A DNA stretch of 64,000 bases, from contig NZ_CP022190.1 in the NCBI RefSeq assembly GCF_003111685.1, positions 520,001 through 584,000 of the forward strand. Direction: 5' to 3'. Both the position numbers and the translations under genes were made by a program. Shown piece after piece: positions 22,374 to 64,000 of the stretch (position 1 is its first letter; the number at the start of each line of letters is the position of its first letter). Source of the DNA: Alloyangia pacifica (GTDB lineage: Bacteria; Pseudomonadota; Alphaproteobacteria; Rhodobacterales; Rhodobacteraceae). The notes beneath the pieces are model-generated. The model searched no databases. It was not told where the DNA came from and saw only the letters and a list, made by a program, of their open reading frames with translations.

Positions 22374-23597
<1,224 letters not shown>

Positions 23598-23608
<11 letters not shown>

Positions 23609-24022: not shown

Positions 24023-24372
24023 GCTAAGGAAAAGGCGTGAAGGAGCGCTGGACTTGGCGGTGCCCTAAATTTCATCGGTCGCATTTCTGCCCCACCCGCA
24101 ACCAATTGTGGCTCTGGTTTCCGCAGGTTGTCGTCCTCAGAAATCTCGGCAACCGGCGGCTGAGTCTTGTGGATTGGGATGACAAGTTGTCGAAGGGTAG
24201 CCGAGGTCCGTGAGTGGACTGACGCGCCCGCAGAGATCTTGGTCACGAACGCCGGAATTTCCCCGGTGCTGAGAGGGAGGGCATTGAATTGAAGCCATTG
24301 ATTATGTTTTACCAGTCGCCCCGGTTTGGACACTTGCCCCATTCCGGGGCTTTTGGTGGCAAAAACGCTCAC
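24019..24372 (-). CDS. Prophage protein of unknown function downstream of the methyltransferase
   Basis: A 117-residue frame starting with GTG that overlaps the methyltransferase stop as GTGA and ending with an ATGA overlap into the next small gene. The sequence (for example GRLVKHNQWLQFNALPLSTG) has no recognised domain. The two coupling junctions are the main evidence for the frame. Confidence 0.5.
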   Translation of the reverse strand: MSVFATKSPGMGQVSKPGRLVKHNQWLQFNALPLSTGEIPAFVTKISAGASVHSRTSATLRQLVIPIHKTQPPVAEISEDDNLRKPEPQLVAGGAEMRPMKFRAPPSPALLHAFSLA

Positions 24373-26579
24373 GCCGCTACCTCCCGAGCTTCGACCAGGT
24401 GCGCGCAATTCGACCGCACCAGCGCTTCGGCCAGCGGCGGGCAGACACTGTTCCCGACGCAGGAAACCTGCACGTCCTTCGGGAAGGCCTCGAACTCCCA
24501 CTCGCCGTCCCGCTGGTGCCAGACGCCCTCGATCACGTAGTCGGCTGGGAAGCCTTGCGCGTTGAAGAGCTCGCGCGGGGTGAGCATCCGCATGCCCACG
24601 TCAACGATGACGAAGGACGTGCCACCGATCTCGAGGGTGACGAACTCGCGATCATCCCAGAGCCCGTGCTGACGCAGCAGTTCGGCGACCTGGCGGGCCC
24701 GCGGCGCGTGCGCCTCGTCGAAGGGCGGGGCCGCGAGCGCGGCCTGCATCGGGCCCATGCTGTCTTTGGTGGTGACCGTGTGCATCGGCTCATGTGCCGG
24801 GGCGCCGTCGCCGGTGCCGTAGTATTTGGCCAGCCATGCGGCGACGGGCGTCTGGTGGCTGCCGGAACTCGTGACGGTCGAGATCGGCTCGCTGACGGGA
24901 CGGCCCGGGTGCACGCCCAGCAGGTCGTTGTTCTGCTGGGCGAGGTAGGCGGCGACCGGGTATTGCTTCACTCCGCCGGCGACGACGGTGTTCAGCGGCG
25001 CGGTGATGTCGAGCGCGCGGGGTGCCTGTCCTTTCCGTTCGCCGTTCCCGACATGCACCATCGTCGCGGCGATCATGCTGTTCTGATCCTTCTTGCTTGC
25101 GCAGATCGTGTGATGCGGATCCTCGATCGACCGGCAGCGCCCGCCCTGCTGCGCATAGGTCAGCATTGGCGCTACGACGGCGCTGTGGTTGCCTTCGGCG
25201 CAGACGGTGGGGTGAGGCTGCGCCACGGGGCCCATGCGGCGCGTGGTGCCCTTCAGGCTGGCCAGCAGGGGCGCGAGGATGCCGAGCGGAGCGGCGCCGC
25301 CCGGGCGCTTGAGGAAGCTGTTGGCGGTGACCGTTGGGAGCGGGGCCGCGATGTCGCTGCCGGTGGCGCCCGTCATGAATTTGGCGATCGAGGGCGTAAC
25401 GAGTGCTGTCTTGCCGCCACCGCCGGCCACAATCGTCGGTACCGGGGCGCCGATGTCGGCGGCCACCGATGCACCGAAGTGGCGCATAAGGGTTGGGGCC
25501 GTGAGAGCGTAGCCGCTTGCGGTTGTGATGGTCCGGACTGGCTCGGTTGCTGGCCATGTGTTCGGCGCGCGCCCGGTGGTCTTCCCGTTCGCAACGTTCA
25601 CCAGCGTCGGGGTGACCAGTGCCTTCTCGCCGCGGTTCGCGCCGGTTACGGTGCGCAGCGGATCGTCGAGAACCTCGGTGCGCGCGCCATGGGTCAGGTT
25701 GACCAGGAAGGGGCGCTCGGCGTCCAGCACGTAGCGGCGCAGCCCCTTGGCGACCCGGGCGAGCGTGTTGACGGCCAGCGGGCGTACGGCGCGCAGCCCA
25801 TGCTTGGCCATGATCTCGGCCTTGCTGTCGAAGATGCTCGGGCAGGGCAGCGACCAGTCGATGCATTCCGCAGCGGTGCGCCACGGCAGCAGCTTTCCCG
25901 CCTTCACCTCTTCCGAGTCCGGCGCGCCATGCGTCGGCGCGGGCCAAACGATGCGCTTGCCGCCGAAGCGGATGGCGACGAACAGCCGCTTGCGGATCGT
26001 CGGGGCGCCGTAGTCGCAGGCGCGCAGCTCGCGGCGCTCGATCTTCCCGCCGAGCTTGCGGATCGCCTTGCACCAAGCGGCGAAGGTCTCGCCCTTGCGC
26101 GCCGGGCAGGGCACCAGCCCGCGCTCGGTCTCGATCAGCGGCCCCCAGCCCGCGAACTCCTCGACGTTCTCCATCAGCACCACGTCGACGCGCCCACCGC
26201 TCTTCTGGATGCGCTCGATCCACCCGGGGATGATCCACGCGAGATCGCGGATGTTGCGCGCCACCGGCTTGCCGCCCTTGGCCTTGCTGAAGTGCTTGCA
26301 GTCCGGGCTGAACCACATCAGGCCGATGTGTTTGCCTGCGAGGTGGTCGAGCGGATCGACGCGGTAGACGTTCTCGGACAGGTGCAGCGTGTCGGGGTGG
26401 TTCGCCGCGTGCAGCGCCAGCGCCGCCGGGTTGTGGTTGATCGCGATGTCGGGCCCGCGGCCAAGGGCCATCTCGATGCCGGTGCTGGCCCCGCCGCCGC
26501 CGGCGAAGCTGTCGACGATCAGCGGCAGGCCGGTGAAGGCGCGGTCGGGCAGTTCGGGAAAGTCGAAGGTGTCGCGCAT
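24369..26579 (-). CDS. C5-cytosine DNA methyltransferase with an internal repeat region
   Basis: A 736-residue Dcm-type methyltransferase. Motif I is DSFAGGGGAS (23-32), motif IV is SPDCKHFS with the catalytic cysteine at 94, motif VI is MENVEEF (136-142), motif VIII is IRKRLFVAI (196-204) and the C-terminal motifs are LTPRELFNAQGFP (666-678) and VGNSVCPP (708-715). Between them, where the target-recognition domain lies, nine repeats of an xPxxT(V/I) element occur (306-603) every 32-42 residues. It probably protects phage DNA or modifies the host chromosome. No cognate restriction enzyme adjoins it. Confidence 0.88.
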   Translation of the reverse strand: MRDTFDFPELPDRAFTGLPLIVDSFAGGGGASTGIEMALGRGPDIAINHNPAALALHAANHPDTLHLSENVYRVDPLDHLAGKHIGLMWFSPDCKHFSKAKGGKPVARNIRDLAWIIPGWIERIQKSGGRVDVVLMENVEEFAGWGPLIETERGLVPCPARKGETFAAWCKAIRKLGGKIERRELRACDYGAPTIRKRLFVAIRFGGKRIVWPAPTHGAPDSEEVKAGKLLPWRTAAECIDWSLPCPSIFDSKAEIMAKHGLRAVRPLAVNTLARVAKGLRRYVLDAERPFLVNLTHGARTEVLDDPLRTVTGANRGEKALVTPTLVNVANGKTTGRAPNTWPATEPVRTITTASGYALTAPTLMRHFGASVAADIGAPVPTIVAGGGGKTALVTPSIAKFMTGATGSDIAAPLPTVTANSFLKRPGGAAPLGILAPLLASLKGTTRRMGPVAQPHPTVCAEGNHSAVVAPMLTYAQQGGRCRSIEDPHHTICASKKDQNSMIAATMVHVGNGERKGQAPRALDITAPLNTVVAGGVKQYPVAAYLAQQNNDLLGVHPGRPVSEPISTVTSSGSHQTPVAAWLAKYYGTGDGAPAHEPMHTVTTKDSMGPMQAALAAPPFDEAHAPRARQVAELLRQHGLWDDREFVTLEIGGTSFVIVDVGMRMLTPRELFNAQGFPADYVIEGVWHQRDGEWEFEAFPKDVQVSCVGNSVCPPLAEALVRSNCAHLVEAREVAA

Positions 26580-56134: not shown

Positions 56135-56938
56135 ATGAGACAGGATATCCGCGCCCTCCAGGCGGGGGCGACTGCGCTCGGCTTTTCGGCCGGGCCTGAA
56201 GACGGCCTCTGGGGGCCGCGCACCGAGGCAGGAATGCTCGCGCTGCTGGCGGCGCACGAGGGCCGCTGGGGTGATGCGGTCGAGCAGATGCATCAGGCGA
56301 TCATCGACCTAGGCTATCTCTCGGCGGGACCGGTCAGCCGCGTCTGGACGCCCGAGCTTGACCGCGGGCTGCGCGCTCTGGTCGAGGCCGATGGCATGCC
56401 GCGTGCAGGTGCGATTGTCGAGGATGTCACGGTGTCGCCTGGCTGGGGCGGCTGGGTTTCGCACGAGAAGCAGGTTCTGCAAGGAAGCGCCGGCTATCTG
56501 GTGAGCATGTTCGTGCTGCATACCACGGCCACCTCAGCGACCTGGTGGAAGGGCAAGTCCAACCAGCAGATGTTCGAGGAGGTCCGCAGCTGGCACCTCG
56601 CCAACGGCTGGCGCGACATCGGCTATCACGGGCTGATCTTCCCGGATGGTGAGGTGATCGAAGGCCGCGCCTGGTCCGAGATTGGCGCGCATGTCATCGG
56701 CCATAACGCCGGCTCGCTCGGCTACTCGATGGTCCCAGTGAAGACCGTGACGCACATGGGCGCGGCCGAGGATTTCTACACCGCCGCGACGCTAGAGGCG
56801 ATACGAGGCGTGATCGCCAAGGCCTGCAACGCCACGCAAATCCGCCGGATTGCAGGGCACAACGAATTCGCGAACAAGCTCTGCCCGGGCTTCAAGGTCG
56901 AGGACAGCGCGTGGGCACCGACCGGGTGGGCCGCATGA
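56135..56938 (+). CDS. Endolysin: N-acetylmuramoyl-L-alanine amidase with a peptidoglycan-binding domain
   Basis: A 267-residue lysin. Residues about 1-85 form a helical peptidoglycan-binding-like domain (DIRALQAGATALGFSAGPED and GLWGPRTEAGM). Residues about 125-260 form an Amidase_2 domain: VLHTTATSATWW, WHLANGWRDIGYHGLIFPDG, GAHVIGHNAGSLG and GHNEFANKLCPGF, giving the zinc ligands. It cuts the peptide from the glycan at lysis. Confidence 0.9.
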   Translation: MRQDIRALQAGATALGFSAGPEDGLWGPRTEAGMLALLAAHEGRWGDAVEQMHQAIIDLGYLSAGPVSRVWTPELDRGLRALVEADGMPRAGAIVEDVTVSPGWGGWVSHEKQVLQGSAGYLVSMFVLHTTATSATWWKGKSNQQMFEEVRSWHLANGWRDIGYHGLIFPDGEVIEGRAWSEIGAHVIGHNAGSLGYSMVPVKTVTHMGAAEDFYTAATLEAIRGVIAKACNATQIRRIAGHNEFANKLCPGFKVEDSAWAPTGWAA

Positions 56939-57987: not shown

Positions 57988-58213
57988 TCCGGGTTTTCTG
58001 GACAAGGGCGTTCGGCTGCTTGCAGCCCTTCCGCGACCTTCGCCCCGAGTTGCCTACGCGGCGAAGCGGACCTTCACCCCGAGAGCATGGGGCGGCAGCA
58101 GCGCGGACAAAGCTGTCAATTACGTTTGTCAATTGAAGGCATGCAAAGCCAATAGAATGCACTGAATCACTGCGAATGGTGCAACCGCTTGCTGTTGCGA
58201 ACCGTTGATCACC

Positions 58214-59164
58214 CTACAGCACCTCATACTTGAAAGAGAAGTGGATTTGTGTCCGTCCGCTCTGCCTCACGCGGATTTTCTTGTTTAGCAGGCTTTCATG
58301 AAAAATCTGAGCGCTGCAAAAGTGATATCGATCATGCCAGTCGTTATTTTTGTGGTAGTCCAAATTGATATCAAAGCGCCTTTCGGTGAGTATAAATTCC
58401 GCAGTGATTCCTGAGGTCATCTCGTCGTCATAAATCTCTGCTGAAGTTGAGACCTCGCCGGGTTTCAACTTTCGAAAATAGTATGGCTTGAGCTCGAACC
58501 GATGCCAGAACAACCTTGCCTGAAGAACATATTGGAAATCAACATCAACGCCATCAAACTTGTTGGTTGTCGTGAATGACGTAGTTCGGACAGCGTGCTG
58601 ACCGATTTCTATCGTGCCGTTGCCAGAACTGTTGAGACCCTCTATTGCTTTGTAAAACCTTTCAAACTCGAGCGTAAATTTCTGGCTCAACAATTTTTGT
58701 AACTCATCTTTGGAAACCAGATCTGATTTCGCAAAACATTGAATGTTGACCTGATCCGCACACAAGATGTATACGGCGGGCTCTGCAAGCGCAATCTCGG
58801 TCGCCTCAACTTCAAATGAAGACAGCTTGAAGAGAGTCACCCCAAGGGCTTGCGCCTTAGCTATTGCAGGTTGTGTGAAGCCGCTCGAAGAAACGGCGAA
58901 TACGTTATCAAAATTCATTGACCGCTGACGACCAGACAATTCCTCAATCCACATGACATCTTGAACGCTGGCGCGATCACGACACTCCACGCAGGTGGTG
59001 CGGCCATTTGAATGTTTTAGTATTACGTCTATCTGGCGTGTCTGATGTGTGTGCGGATCTTTGATCTTGGCATTCCATGTAACCTCGACGCCCAATTTCT
59101 CCACGGCTTCGAATACCCTTGCCACACGGCGCTCAAAATATGTCGCTTTGCTTGGAGCTGGCAC
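58214..59164 (-). CDS. Mrr-like restriction endonuclease-fold protein
   Basis: A 316-residue protein. Residues about 8-115 fit a PD-(D/E)XK (Mrr_cat) nuclease: YFERRVARVFEAVEKLG, Asp46 in RQIDVILK, E60-C-R62 in VECRDRASVQDV (arginine where lysine is usual), and VFAVSSSGFTQPAIAKAQAL followed by GVTLFKL. The C-terminal 200 residues form an unassigned beta-rich domain. The gene has lower GC than the phage genes and is transcribed opposite to them. A defence role is inferred. Confidence 0.7.
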   Translation of the reverse strand: MPAPSKATYFERRVARVFEAVEKLGVEVTWNAKIKDPHTHQTRQIDVILKHSNGRTTCVECRDRASVQDVMWIEELSGRQRSMNFDNVFAVSSSGFTQPAIAKAQALGVTLFKLSSFEVEATEIALAEPAVYILCADQVNIQCFAKSDLVSKDELQKLLSQKFTLEFERFYKAIEGLNSSGNGTIEIGQHAVRTTSFTTTNKFDGVDVDFQYVLQARLFWHRFELKPYYFRKLKPGEVSTSAEIYDDEMTSGITAEFILTERRFDINLDYHKNNDWHDRYHFCSAQIFHESLLNKKIRVRQSGRTQIHFSFKYEVL

Positions 59165-59641
59165 GTTATCTCTCTAAGGCAATTCATGCATGCAGAGAAA
59201 TGCACCATAACCGTCTTACGTGCAAGTGCACGCGTCACCGACAAATAACCGTCATTCGAGGACGCGGCAGAACTGGGCAATCTGGGCTCTGAGGCGTCGA
59301 TCGCTGCGCTCAGCCCGAACGGCCGCTTCAGAGAAGTGAGCCCAGCGGAGCGAAGTCCGCTCCCTGCGCACTACTGCCGGCCGAACCACACCGCGTGCGA
59401 CTGGAGCCAGCCCAGAGCTGCCCTCCGAGCTCGCCGCAGCATCACGCCAGGCGCCGGCACAGAGGGCGGTATGCGGACATTCGTTGCGCGCGCGAACCGA
59501 GCTATGCCAGATCGCGGAAGCGGACACTCCGCCAGTATCGCGCCGCGGAACCCTGGATCACGTACAGGAAGGGCGGATACCGGACATTTGCAGCAGTCCG
59601 CGCCAATTTCGGAAAGGGTGCAAAAGCGGATTTTGCAAAGT
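59165..59641. other. Gene-free stretch between island genes
   Basis: No frame with a start and binding site is convincing. Short related words (GCGGACATTCG, GCGGACACTCC, CCGGACATTTG) recur at about 59471, 59520 and 59580. It is GC-rich, unlike the genes on both sides. Confidence 0.4.
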
Positions 59642-61411
59642 TCAGGCACTGTCACGCGGGGGATCAAGGGTGAAGGTTTTCAAGCGCGGCACACCAGTCA
59701 ACGTATCATCGTGGGTCCTCACGAGTGTTTGTGCGTCACGATCGTATTCTATGTTGGCTGGCAGCATCGCCTCTGCCACAGGCGGGTGTGATATCGCAAT
59801 CGTTTGATAGTTCTTCTTCACCCACCCTCCGACAACTTTCGCAAGCGGCCAACTATCTCTTTCCAAGGTGTCGTTTCGATGAACGCTCTCGTCGTAAAAT
59901 CCTAAGACGTTCAGACAGAAACGGATATATGCTGCTCCCTTATAATTTGGAAAGTCATCCATGCGAACGACCTCATCCCAGATCATCCGCCGAAGCTTTC
60001 GGCGCACCATCTTCATGACTTCTGTGTCTCTGACCCCAAGATTTTCAGTGAGTGCCCAAACAGTATTGCGCTGAACATCCCACATGCGGAATTCTTTTGT
60101 ATTGACCTGTGCCGCCTTAAAGATCGCCTTGAAAAGCAGCGCCGCAATCTCTGAAGACAGGTCGCGCCCGTATCTGAAATCGTCTTTTCTGTCGAAGCCA
60201 ACCCACCCCTTAGCGTCATCGAATTCTTTGATGAGGTCCTTTAGGAACCCATTGGCCTCCATGGCATGCGAAGTTGGGTTGTATGGACTGAATGTGTCCT
60301 CATATTTCTTCAAGTCGCCGATTTGGCTATAAGCTTGCTTTGTCGTCTGAAGGATATGATGGATGCCTCTGGTATTCCAATTTGCGCTCCCGGTGGACGT
60401 TAGACCACGAATATACTCGCGCGCCATACCGAAATATACCCGCCAAGTATCGGCATCCCAACTACGAGCATACGGATAATCCAAGTCAAGCGGCGATTCC
60501 AATCCCAACTCGAAGTCCTCCAATAAATACCAATGCGCAAAAATCGATCGTGTTATGGGCTTTGTATTACCTATGAAACCTTGGCCCAGCCACTCGTTCT
60601 CGACAAATAATGCCGATCCCGGATTGCTGAGCATGGCTATCACGGTACGCTTTACCATGAGCTGAATAGGTGCATCATACCTTTCTAGTTCGACAGCGAC
60701 CGTTACCATATGAGCTGGAAATGAAGGCATCTCTTTTGCGACAGCGTCGCAGAACCGTGTATCGGACAAGAGCGAGTTAAGGTAGTGAGCGTGCCTTTGC
60801 AGCGCCGACGGTTTAACGGATTTGTCATCCTCGACGCGATGACGTTTCATGCGTGGTGTGTGGCGGATCAGTCTGGGAGCTTCACGCATGATCTCGCGCG
60901 CCAATGCGAGCATCTCTTCTTTGCTTCCATTCGCGATGTGGACATATGTCTGCTGAAAGAAATGCTTGGCGGTAAACCGTGAGAACCGAGGAGGCCTGAT
61001 AAAGCATATCATCATCCAGTAGAGGATCAATACCGCGATTGCTGCGGTGATGAAGTAGTTGATCGCGTTAGGGTTGAGAAAATTTGGAATTCGAACGCCG
61101 TAGAGAATACAGGCCTCAATTGCGAATGTGATGACGGCAGAAAATAGAAGCATGCCAAAAAACAGCGGTCGGAAGGAAATGATTGCCGTCGACTGCCTGA
61201 TTTGAAATTTCGGACTGGAGAGAGTGAATACCGCTAAAGAAAACGCAAGTATGCCAAGAAAGCCGCTAATATCGAGAAAAGGGGTGTAGTCGTCACGTGC
61301 GACAACAACCAAGCTTTGATCCCACCATTGAGAAAAACTTCCCCAGGAACCAAGAATCCAACTGGTTAAACCATCCCACAATGTTTGTGTCTCCCGCACC
61401 ATTGGTACCAA
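59642..61411 (-). CDS. Large membrane protein of unknown function
   Basis: A 589-residue protein. Three N-terminal membrane helices (FLDISGFLGILAFSLAVFTL, PLFFGMLLFSAVITFAIEAC, INYFITAAIAVLILYWMMIC) anchor a cytoplasmic part of about 450 residues, mostly helical and rich in tryptophan and arginine. AT-rich codon use differs from the phage genes. No catalytic motif was recognised. It lies between the Mrr-like and kinase-like genes. Confidence 0.75.
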   Translation of the reverse strand: MVPMVRETQTLWDGLTSWILGSWGSFSQWWDQSLVVVARDDYTPFLDISGFLGILAFSLAVFTLSSPKFQIRQSTAIISFRPLFFGMLLFSAVITFAIEACILYGVRIPNFLNPNAINYFITAAIAVLILYWMMICFIRPPRFSRFTAKHFFQQTYVHIANGSKEEMLALAREIMREAPRLIRHTPRMKRHRVEDDKSVKPSALQRHAHYLNSLLSDTRFCDAVAKEMPSFPAHMVTVAVELERYDAPIQLMVKRTVIAMLSNPGSALFVENEWLGQGFIGNTKPITRSIFAHWYLLEDFELGLESPLDLDYPYARSWDADTWRVYFGMAREYIRGLTSTGSANWNTRGIHHILQTTKQAYSQIGDLKKYEDTFSPYNPTSHAMEANGFLKDLIKEFDDAKGWVGFDRKDDFRYGRDLSSEIAALLFKAIFKAAQVNTKEFRMWDVQRNTVWALTENLGVRDTEVMKMVRRKLRRMIWDEVVRMDDFPNYKGAAYIRFCLNVLGFYDESVHRNDTLERDSWPLAKVVGGWVKKNYQTIAISHPPVAEAMLPANIEYDRDAQTLVRTHDDTLTGVPRLKTFTLDPPRDSA

Positions 61412-61544
61412 AATCGGCTTACCCGGCTTCTACGTAAGAAGCATGTGCAATTCATGACCGACATGTCCCAAGAAAATTTCCACTTTGGTCCACTAGAAGA
61501 CGCTGGCAGCGTTCCATATAAATTAGCACTTAGGGTCGGACAGG

Positions 61545-62045
61545 TCAGAACCGACCAGATCTGTTTAGAGGGTTTAACACTTGGTAGAAGTTGACCATAG
61601 CATAGTCCATCACTTTGACCCTGCCATCACCAGTTAAACCAAATGCGCTTGGCTTGCGGTCATTTAGCCAATCCGGGAACCCTCCTAGTTGAAGGCGATC
61701 AGGGTCTTTCAAAGGTTGCAGCCGTTCCATAATCAAGAATTCTGCCGAGTGCGAAATAGCCGCGGTGCGCGCAAAGAGCTCAAGTAGTTGCAAATTAGCT
61801 TCGTTGCCCAAGATGTCTTCGGCCATTTTGTCAACGGCATGCCAAACAGTCCACTCAACAAAGTTGCTGTAGTGGAAAGGTCGATGGCTTTGCTTGATCA
61901 CAAAGTCCTGAGAACCTTTCACTCCATACACGCGACGCGTTGTTCCTGTACCGAGCTCATTGTTGAAGTCGATCAAATTTTTGAGAATTTGGTCTTCTAC
62001 CAGGCCTTCCGGAATCTTCTTCAATTGTTCGCTCCACTCACTCAT
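61545..62045 (-). CDS. Small protein with a kinase-like fold
   Basis: A 166-residue protein. GTGTTRRVYGVKGSQDFVIK looks like a glycine-rich loop with Lys51, EWTVWH may supply the helix glutamate, LIMERL the hinge, and KPSAFGLTGDGRVKVMDYAM a catalytic/metal segment ending in Asp147. The usual HxxxxN is replaced by SAFG after DRKP, so activity is uncertain. It is far shorter than normal kinases. The call is motif-based. Confidence 0.55.
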   Translation of the reverse strand: MSEWSEQLKKIPEGLVEDQILKNLIDFNNELGTGTTRRVYGVKGSQDFVIKQSHRPFHYSNFVEWTVWHAVDKMAEDILGNEANLQLLELFARTAAISHSAEFLIMERLQPLKDPDRLQLGGFPDWLNDRKPSAFGLTGDGRVKVMDYAMVNFYQVLNPLNRSGRF

Positions 62046-62257
62046 CGATTGGAAACCAGTTTAGCATGCGAGTTTAGCCGATGTCAGCCCAAGGAAGGCT
62101 GCAATGCAGCGTCCCGCGCTCAGACCAATGTTCGGTCTGGGCCGATCTAGCGGGCAGACCCACTCACCAGAACGTCCAGAACGCCGCTCCGCGGCAGGTC
62201 TGCTCCGTGCCCGCTCCTGGCATTTCTCACAGCGACGCCGCGTGTTAATGCCTACTG

Positions 62258-62860
62258 TCAGAGGCGACCGCCTTGCTCGTCCATTTCGCGTGCGTGAGAC
62301 AGGATGCGCCGCACTTCGCTCCGAATGGGCTGAAATTCGAATTTTCTGCCAAGGAGCACGCAAATGCCATGCGTTGGATCGACCAGCTTGAAAATATGCC
62401 CGATGGCTTCGTCGGCGAGCGCCTGGTCGTCTACTAACGGACTTGGGAAGAAGTACCCGGCTCGATCCTCAAGAAGGAAGCGGTCAAGGTCTTCGTCGAA
62501 ATGCTCAAAGGCATTTCGCAGCTTGCGCCATTTCAGCGCTGATGCTTCATCAAGCGCGAAGGCACCTCGCAGCCGATCACCACGGGCGACTGCAAGTTGG
62601 TTTTGCTTCTTCATTGGCCAGAAGAAGCGGGATAGCGCCCCCGCGTGGGTCAACGCCTCCTGAACAGTGGCGACGATCAATTCGGCCGGACAGGAGGCGG
62701 CAACAGCCTCATCAAAGCGCTGGAACGCCGACTCCGATCGCTCGGCTGCATAGATTATGGAGTGGATGTAGAACGCTTCGTAGACGGGATAGATTCCCTG
62801 GTACTGCTGCGCCATTTGTGCCTCTCTCTCCTTGAGCACATCTTCATCCAATTGCGCCAT
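62258..62860 (-). CDS. HEPN-motif protein, possible RNase
   Basis: A protein of 200 residues from the start with GGAG seven bases upstream; the frame is open to GTG 62920. It is almost wholly helical. KWRKLRNAFEHFDEDLDRFL contains R-N-X3-H (Rx4H), the signature of HEPN RNases. An N-terminal helical pair (YPVYEAFYIHSIIYAAERSE) would complete such a fold. HEPN proteins are common toxins and defence effectors; the role here is inferred. Confidence 0.55.
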   Translation of the reverse strand: MAQLDEDVLKEREAQMAQQYQGIYPVYEAFYIHSIIYAAERSESAFQRFDEAVAASCPAELIVATVQEALTHAGALSRFFWPMKKQNQLAVARGDRLRGAFALDEASALKWRKLRNAFEHFDEDLDRFLLEDRAGYFFPSPLVDDQALADEAIGHIFKLVDPTHGICVLLGRKFEFQPIRSEVRRILSHAREMDEQGGRL

Positions 62861-62961
62861 TTCCATACTCCCGATGCTTTCTGGTTGCACCATACTGTCA
62901 ACGCCAGCTTTGTCCCACACTGCCTATGATCATACTGCGTAATGCCACCGATGGCAGGTTT

Positions 62962-63029
62962 GGGAAGCTGCGCCGCAGAAAAGCGCAGCCCGGCGAACGG
63001 CCGGTAATGGGATGTGCCGGCTGCTTCCC
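62962..63029 (+). ncRNA. Candidate bridge RNA region upstream of the IS110 transposase
   Basis: GGGAAGC (62962-62968) pairs with GCTTCCC (63023-63029), enclosing a hairpin CTGCGC/GCGCAG (62968-62988) and further CCGG/GCCGGC pairing. IS110 elements encode a structured bridge RNA in the non-coding end before the transposase. The identification is by position and fold only. Confidence 0.4.
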
Positions 63030-63082
63030 CCACCGTTGGGTTATCCTGCACTGGGATCATCCGCGCCAAAGGAGAAGCAGCC

Positions 63083-64000
63083 ATGTGTGCGAAGAAGACA
63101 GGAAGCATTGAAGACTTGGCGGTTGTCGGCATCGACATCGGCAAGGATACATTCCATCTGGTCGGATTCGACTGCTCGGGTCAGCTGGTTTTGCGCAAGC
63201 AGATCAAGCGGCTTGCGCTGGAGGCAACGTTCGAGAAGTTGCCGCAATGTGTGGTCGGGATGGAGGCTTGCCTCAGCGCCCATTTTGTCAGCCGAACGCT
63301 GCGGCGGATGGGGTTCGAGCCACGGATCATCCCGGCGATTTACGTGAAGCCGTTCAACAAGGGTCAGAAGAACGATTACAACGACGCCGAGGCGATCGCC
63401 GAAGCCGCTCTGCGGCCGAACCTGCGGACGGTGACGGAGAAGAGCCAGGACCAGCTCGACCTTCAGGCCCTGCACCGGGTGCGCGCGGCTGGTGTCGCGG
63501 CGCACGGCGACCATCAACCAGATCCGGGCCTTCCTGATCGAGCGGGGCATCACCGTCAGGTCGGGGCTGCGGGCGCTGAAGAATTCCTTTGAGACGATCC
63601 TCGAACAGCGGCGGGACGAGATCTCGCCCCGGATGCGAGGTATCCTGATCGGGCTTTACGGCGACTGGCTCTGGCTGGACAAACGGATCGAGGATGTCTC
63701 CGACGAGATCGAAGGGATCAGCCGAACCGAAGAGAACTGCGCCAACATCATGACAATACCCGGCATCGGGCCAATGATCTCGACGGCGATGGTTGCGGCC
63801 GTCGGCAAAGGCGAGGCATTCGACCGGGGGCGCGATTTCGCCGCCTGGGTTGGCTTGGTGCCCCGACAGTTCAGCACCGGCGGGCGAACGATCCTCGGCC
63901 GGATCACCAAACGCGGCAGCCGCTATCTGAGGATGCTGTTCGTGCAAGCTGCGAAAGTGATCATGATGCGCCCTCACCGATGGTCCGACTTCAGTTTCGG
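63083..64000 (+). pseudogene. IS110-family transposase, frameshifted and cut by the window end
   Basis: The N-terminal DEDD RuvC-like domain is clear (VVGIDIGKDTFHLVGF, VVGMEACLS, NDYNDAEAIAEAAL). At about 63481-63490, after LQALHRVR, the frame breaks; reading resumes one frame over as RLVSRRTATINQIRAFLIER. Comparison with the expected HRVRARLVSRR suggests a 2-base loss in a GCGCGC run. The C-terminal transposase_20 domain is present (IPGIGPMISTAMVAAVGKGE, GRDFAAWVGLVPRQ, ILGRITKRGSRYLRMLFV). AAAGGAGA precedes the ATG. It is probably inactive unless rescued by frameshifting. Confidence 0.8.

Follow-up and report, generated by a model that had tools for sequence, protein, structure and literature searches.

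Does a run of four genes at the right end of a prophage encode one defence system or several unrelated ones? The question is raised by a 64,000-nucleotide stretch of the Alloyangia pacifica genome (NZ_CP022190.1, positions 520,001 to 584,000; hereafter the window), in which four open reading frames (ORFs), ORF1 to ORF4, are read leftward against the late genes of the phage. A sequence-only reading had described them as an island of nuclease-, kinase- and HEPN-like proteins next to prophage lysis genes, with gaps of 130-480 bases, and had suggested that the four act together. Its description of the region proved accurate. The four genes are on the same strand and their GC content (0.469, 0.493, 0.475 and 0.566 for ORF1 to ORF4, counted from the likely starts) is below that of the prophage body (0.637); an amidase/endolysin gene lies nearby. 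The intergenic gaps, from ORF1 to ORF4, measure 477, 133-142 and 212-233 bp, the ranges reflecting the choice of start. Likely starts of ORF2 to ORF4 were chosen by homologue alignment, and that of ORF4 coincides with position 62,860, where the island had been said to end. Joint action, in contrast, found no support.

Separate distribution of the four genes

None of 44 distinct other loci with a relative (ORF1, 9; ORF2, 8; ORF3, 11; ORF4, 16) carries relatives of two of the four genes, the flanks covered spanning between less than 1 kb (L034) and 15 kb, with several contigs ending near the match. ORF1 was searched in these loci by tblastn only, ORF2 to ORF4 also by profile. Two pairs among the 44 (L028/L029 and L053/L076) may be near-duplicates. 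Of the 55 phage records that contain a relative of ORF3, the set holds one; the other 54 stand outside it, as do plasmid hits H24-H26, H33 and H39, which are apparent near-duplicates of included ones. The same picture was obtained at the level of the order. Among 390 genomes, the window's own included, only the latter has more than one of the four genes. Matches elsewhere number five for ORF1, two for ORF2 and none for ORF3 or ORF4, each in a different genome. Of 147 other relatives, one has ORF2, and 19 other genomes of the genus gave no match.

DNA comparison with 12 other genomes of the genus showed that a unit containing ORF4 is shared with one of them, Salipiger sp. P9, where it is found without ORF1 to ORF3. 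There, the unit is flanked by genes that look chromosomal by eye, and the contig ends about 1.9 kb further. In the window, it stops at least about 35 bp short of the start of a match to an IS110-family element. Two dispersed repeats of the genus are also present, one at the left edge of the region and one between ORF1 and ORF2. Taken together, the separate distribution, the lone ORF4 unit and the dispersed repeats indicate that the four genes were most likely gained separately. Homologues occurring apart from one another had been named beforehand, in the sequence-only reading itself, as evidence that would refute joint action, and this is the distribution observed.

HEPN-TM, a two-gene system named in PMC11087260, was also considered and rejected, since ORF2 and ORF4 are non-adjacent here and never found together in the 44 other loci.

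The four proteins and the neighbours of their relatives

The kinase fold read in the 166-residue ORF3 translation agrees with an AlphaFold model and with structure comparison. In the alignment of 29 family members, K51, E64 and D129 are found in all and D147 in 28, at catalytic and metal-binding positions. At the position that normally holds the metal-binding Asn of kinases, all 29 have Ala. Search of these members with kinase family profiles returned only PIP49_C, for one of them (E 0.17), and hhalign of the family to two kinases gave P of 0.038 and 0.013. One relative of 291 residues (P0209, Candidatus Ferrigenium straubiae) appears, by eye, to contain two mini-kinase copies.

On plasmids, the neighbours of ORF3 relatives include retron III-A, PD-Lambda-2, Shedu and restriction-modification genes, whereas five plasmid windows used as control (one beginning in a GIY-YIG gene; 54 of 61 listed ORFs, taken by eye) are nearly blank for defence genes. 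The ORF3 scan covered 47 of 72 listed ORFs, also taken by eye, and included four viral loci; the neighbour scans excluded the query gene as well as ORFs that were small, truncated, overlapping or far away. The 100 PADLOC models matched in it, 25 of them listed, are an inflated count, as one reverse transcriptase alone matches 43. Three MTase_II members were also found, without assignment to particular loci. The defence context of the mini-kinase relatives is good, and that of ORF1, ORF2 and ORF4 relatives thin. The sequence-only reading had taken homologues outside defence or prophage contexts as evidence against its proposal. Here the outcome is divided: plasmid relatives of ORF3 do lie among defence genes, and others are in phages, while relatives of the remaining three genes have mixed mobile and chromosomal surroundings.

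In ORF4, the R-N-X3-H motif that had been noted (RNAFEH) is strongly conserved. R135 and H140 are invariant in the 23 aligned sequences and N136 nearly so. The motif agrees with the definition of HEPN domains, which requires R-x4-6-H and a polar residue following the R (PMC3710099). One relative is labelled 'HEPN AbiU2-like' in UniRef; a PDB sequence search with ORF4 gave no relevant match.

The Mrr-like class assigned to ORF1 was recovered as a match of residues 10-113 to Mrr_cat (PF04471), at 30.7 bits for a cut-off of 21. The C-terminal part, about 200 residues, lies outside this match. The catalytic motif of Mrr_cat is usually D...(E/Q)-x-K. D46 and E60 are present in ORF1, and Arg occupies position 62, where Lys is usual. 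Seven of the nine relatives aligned also have E-C-R and two have D-C-K. Because of this Arg in place of the catalytic Lys, ORF1 is not classed as an active nuclease. None of four plasmid matches covers 80% of ORF1, the relatives found sharing the N-terminal domain only. One relative adjoins an ATPase-HNH pair with a protein kinase and a PP2C; another is close to an integrase and another restriction-type gene.

For ORF2, family-mean hydropathy agrees with the three membrane spans read previously and puts them at residues 46-64, 84-102 and 120-138 of the 589-residue translation. The predicted model (predicted local distance difference test score 86.5, predicted template modelling score 0.79) has a large helical domain and a short C-terminal beta part. 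Fold comparison returned general HEAT/ARM-type helical-repeat proteins, a likeness that may be one of mere arrangement. A protein search that scored the 7998 candidates sharing most words yielded 58 relatives; the nine with an organism name are all from alphaproteobacteria. Distant relatives are found in a proteobacterial metagenome-assembled genome and in Aromatoleum. One relative, 25% identical, directly follows a type IIG restriction-methylation gene, and a HerA/mad8-like gene lies about 2 kb away from another, for which 9 of 10 neighbours scanned matched nothing. In the neighbour scan (40 of 77 listed ORFs, chosen by eye), single members match Csx16, TnsB, DrmC and CARF models, without assignment to a locus. 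A shortened relative was observed in L010 (9962-10564) and at the same place in L048, cut to the N-terminal 200 residues or so, which correspond to the membrane part. In L010 it is near a trio of TerY-, PP2C- and kinase-like genes and beside a nuclease-like gene (by eye).

Prophage setting and borders

An exact pair of 56-bp direct repeats, the attachment sites attL and attR, was found at the tRNA-Val gene and beyond the end of the window (Table 1). The four-gene region therefore lies inside an integrated element of about 43.5 kb. It sits between the late/lysis genes and the right attachment site, a position typical of prophage cargo, and beside the IS110-family element. IMG/VR holds the identical sequence as a 44,886-bp provirus whose computed limits (about 18707-63592) differ from the repeat ends.

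Table 1. Features of the prophage and its cargo region, in window numbering
Feature	Coordinates	Strand	Remarks
attL, in and just past the 3' half of tRNA-Val(tac)	22402..22457		56-bp direct repeat, exact copy of attR
Integrase-like gene adjoining attL	22406..23608	-	read by eye from translation
Amidase/endolysin of the prophage	56135..56938	+	phrog_822, 4.4e-30
Dispersed repeat of the genus, left edge of cargo region	57990..58113		DNA comparison with same-genus genomes
ORF1, Mrr_cat-type PD-(D/E)XK-like protein	58214..59164	-	PF04471, 30.7 bits; alignment with 9 relatives
Dispersed repeat of the genus, ORF1-ORF2 gap	59274..59408		DNA comparison with same-genus genomes
ORF2, three-span membrane protein with large helical domain	59642..61411	-	likely start ATG 61402; phrog_25374, 81.2 bits
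ORF3, minimal protein-kinase-fold protein	61545..62045	-	likely start TTG 62024 (about 159 residues); phrog_4301, 54.4 bits
ORF4 unit	62136..62915		92.7% identical to a 782-bp stretch in Salipiger sp. P9, without ORF1-ORF3
ORF4, HEPN-like protein with invariant R-N-x3-H	62258..62920	-	likely start ATG 62860; about 200 residues
IS110-family element, left part, near ORF4 unit	62951..64000	+	PF01548, 55.5 bits; 98-99% identical copies in L071/L073
attR, past the window end	65883-65938		exact 56-bp direct repeat

The ORF of the IS110-family element, which is partial, matches NF033542 (1.4e-32) at 113.2 bits, below the cut-off of 140. In L071 and L073, copies of the element align with 62951/62995-64247 and resume at 65306-65463. 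The element therefore looks interrupted here, with about 1 kb of other DNA near its end. Its first reading frame stops early, at 63592. The two dispersed repeats are present at many sites in several genomes of the genus and elsewhere in the window's own genome, and may lie at boundaries between acquired segments. From attR on, a 291-bp stretch (65883-66173; L045) is 88% identical to the 3' end of the prophage integrase gene, which suggests the trace of an earlier or second related element at the same tRNA-Val gene. A large gene, DNA cytosine methyltransferase-like by eye from its translation, lies near the left end of the prophage (24369-26579).

Possible roles and relation to known systems

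On balance we favour the view that this is a cargo (accessory, or 'moron') region of a tRNA-Val-integrated prophage, made up of four separate genes that each protect the lysogen alone; each of them is most likely a candidate anti-phage gene. From the observations above we infer its promoters, expression, targets and biochemical steps, as well as the defence function itself, as follows. The four genes would have reached the right end of the prophage separately. Read leftward against the late genes, each would probably have its own promoter active in the lysogen, and each most likely protects this cell from other phages by itself. ORF4 could be a HEPN-type RNase that cuts RNA upon infection and leads to abortion, as Tha does in Staphylococcus aureus prophages. 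ORF3, as a minimal kinase, would bind ATP and phosphorylate a component of the host or of the incoming phage. ORF1 may bind or cut foreign, perhaps modified, DNA in the manner of Mrr/type IV proteins, and ORF2 may be a membrane-anchored helical scaffold acting as sensor or membrane effector.

Several observations weigh against single-gene defence. Searches of PADLOC-DB 2.0.0 returned no family for ORF2 to ORF4 at E up to 1, and for ORF1 only ZorD, in its nuclease part (E 0.0072, 12.1 bits). The Arg that ORF1 has where a catalytic Lys is usual counts here too, as do relatives of ORF1 beside conjugation genes, the frequent location of ORF2 and ORF4 relatives in surroundings that are not defence-like, and the absence of any HEPN Pfam match for the 23 aligned ORF4 sequences at E up to 1. 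One flank of the plasmid ORF3 relatives is often ordinary metabolism. ORF3 also has relatives in phages (55 records, 51 from Pseudomonas phages), where a takeover or counter-defence role of such a protein is as plausible.

It is possible, if on the unlikely side, that the four are separately acquired cargo without a defence role. Such cargo could consist of genes for host takeover or counter-defence, of passengers from plasmids or phages, or of decaying genes. The phage records, the missing PADLOC matches, the unremarkable context of several ORF2 and ORF4 relatives and the Lys-to-Arg change in ORF1 all fit this explanation, as does the ORF3 relative in LKO4, which is located among replication-region and hypothetical genes. 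However, all four frames are open and ORF2 to ORF4 have relatives conserved over the full length. The region also runs against the late genes, an orientation common among genes expressed in lysogens, and the plasmid relatives of ORF3 cluster with defence genes when compared with the control.

A single multi-gene system with four parts acting jointly, as the sequence-only reading proposed, appears highly improbable. Adjacency, common strand, low GC and shared prophage position speak for it. So do a few relatives elsewhere whose neighbours are similar in kind and of other families, which also count against pure independence: a PD-(D/E)XK gene of another family near an ORF4 relative, the protein kinase and PP2C adjoining an ORF1 relative, and the nuclease-like gene beside the shortened ORF2 relative in L010. 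Yet two of the genes co-occur in none of the 44 loci and in no second genome among the 390, ORF4 is found without the others in Salipiger, the gaps measure 130-480 bp and a dispersed repeat separates ORF1 from ORF2; the joint system was therefore rejected. Another reading makes ORF3 and ORF4 a toxin-antitoxin pair, the kinase-fold ORF3 modifying and silencing the HEPN RNase ORF4 by analogy with HEPN-MNT (a precedent for HEPN toxin silencing through modification, going by a title cited in PMC11087260). It is hardly credible and was likewise rejected: the two genes are close neighbours on the same strand, but ORF3 is at none of the 16 other ORF4 loci, ORF4 at none of the 11 other ORF3 loci, and the Salipiger ORF4 unit has no ORF3.

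With the attractive one-system reading corrected, the four genes can be tested separately. Prophages with single defence genes are of a known kind; the mini-kinase and membrane-protein families would be the new part, if any. Tentatively, ORF3 might represent an undescribed family of C-lobe-poor minimal kinases, acting as single-gene anti-phage proteins in alphaproteobacterial plasmids and prophages and having divergent phage relatives, and ORF2 a second undescribed stand-alone family of membrane-anchored helical-repeat proteins. Should the mini-kinase family confer protection against phage, it would provide a kinase-type defence gene of very small size, easy to test at about 160 residues, and its phage-borne relatives might serve as its counterpart.

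Compared with known families, ORF2 and ORF3 each match a phage family without assigned function (phrog_25374 and phrog_4301). ORF3 differs from the protein kinases retrieved from the PDB (IRAK4, LCK and plant receptor-like kinases) in that it stops shortly past the D-Y-G/A motif and therefore lacks most of the C-lobe, and in the Ala that replaces the metal-binding Asn. ORF1 resembles Mrr_cat/type IV restriction-like nucleases by its above-cut-off match and the retained D and E of the motif, but has E-C-R where these usually have E-x-K, and an unassigned C-terminal part. ORF4 shares with AbiU2-type HEPN proteins, as described in PMC3710099, the conserved R-x4-H and the N after R, as well as the UniRef name of one relative; it differs by the lack of a Pfam match noted above. 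By analogy, the nearest experimentally tested counterpart of ORF4 is Tha, a tail-activated HEPN anti-phage system of Staphylococcus aureus prophages that is described as acting as an RNase (PMC11087260). The two are likened by motif and prophage setting, not by sequence relation. According to the same source, Tha-1 is linked with Ith (Xis) and has 301 residues, of which 184-296 form the HEPN domain, whereas ORF4 has about 200 residues and is located at the lysis-attR end. Both are single prophage-borne genes with an R-N-x3-H motif, RNSIMH in Tha and RNAFEH in ORF4, and in Tha a change of the H to A abolished protection (PMC11087260).

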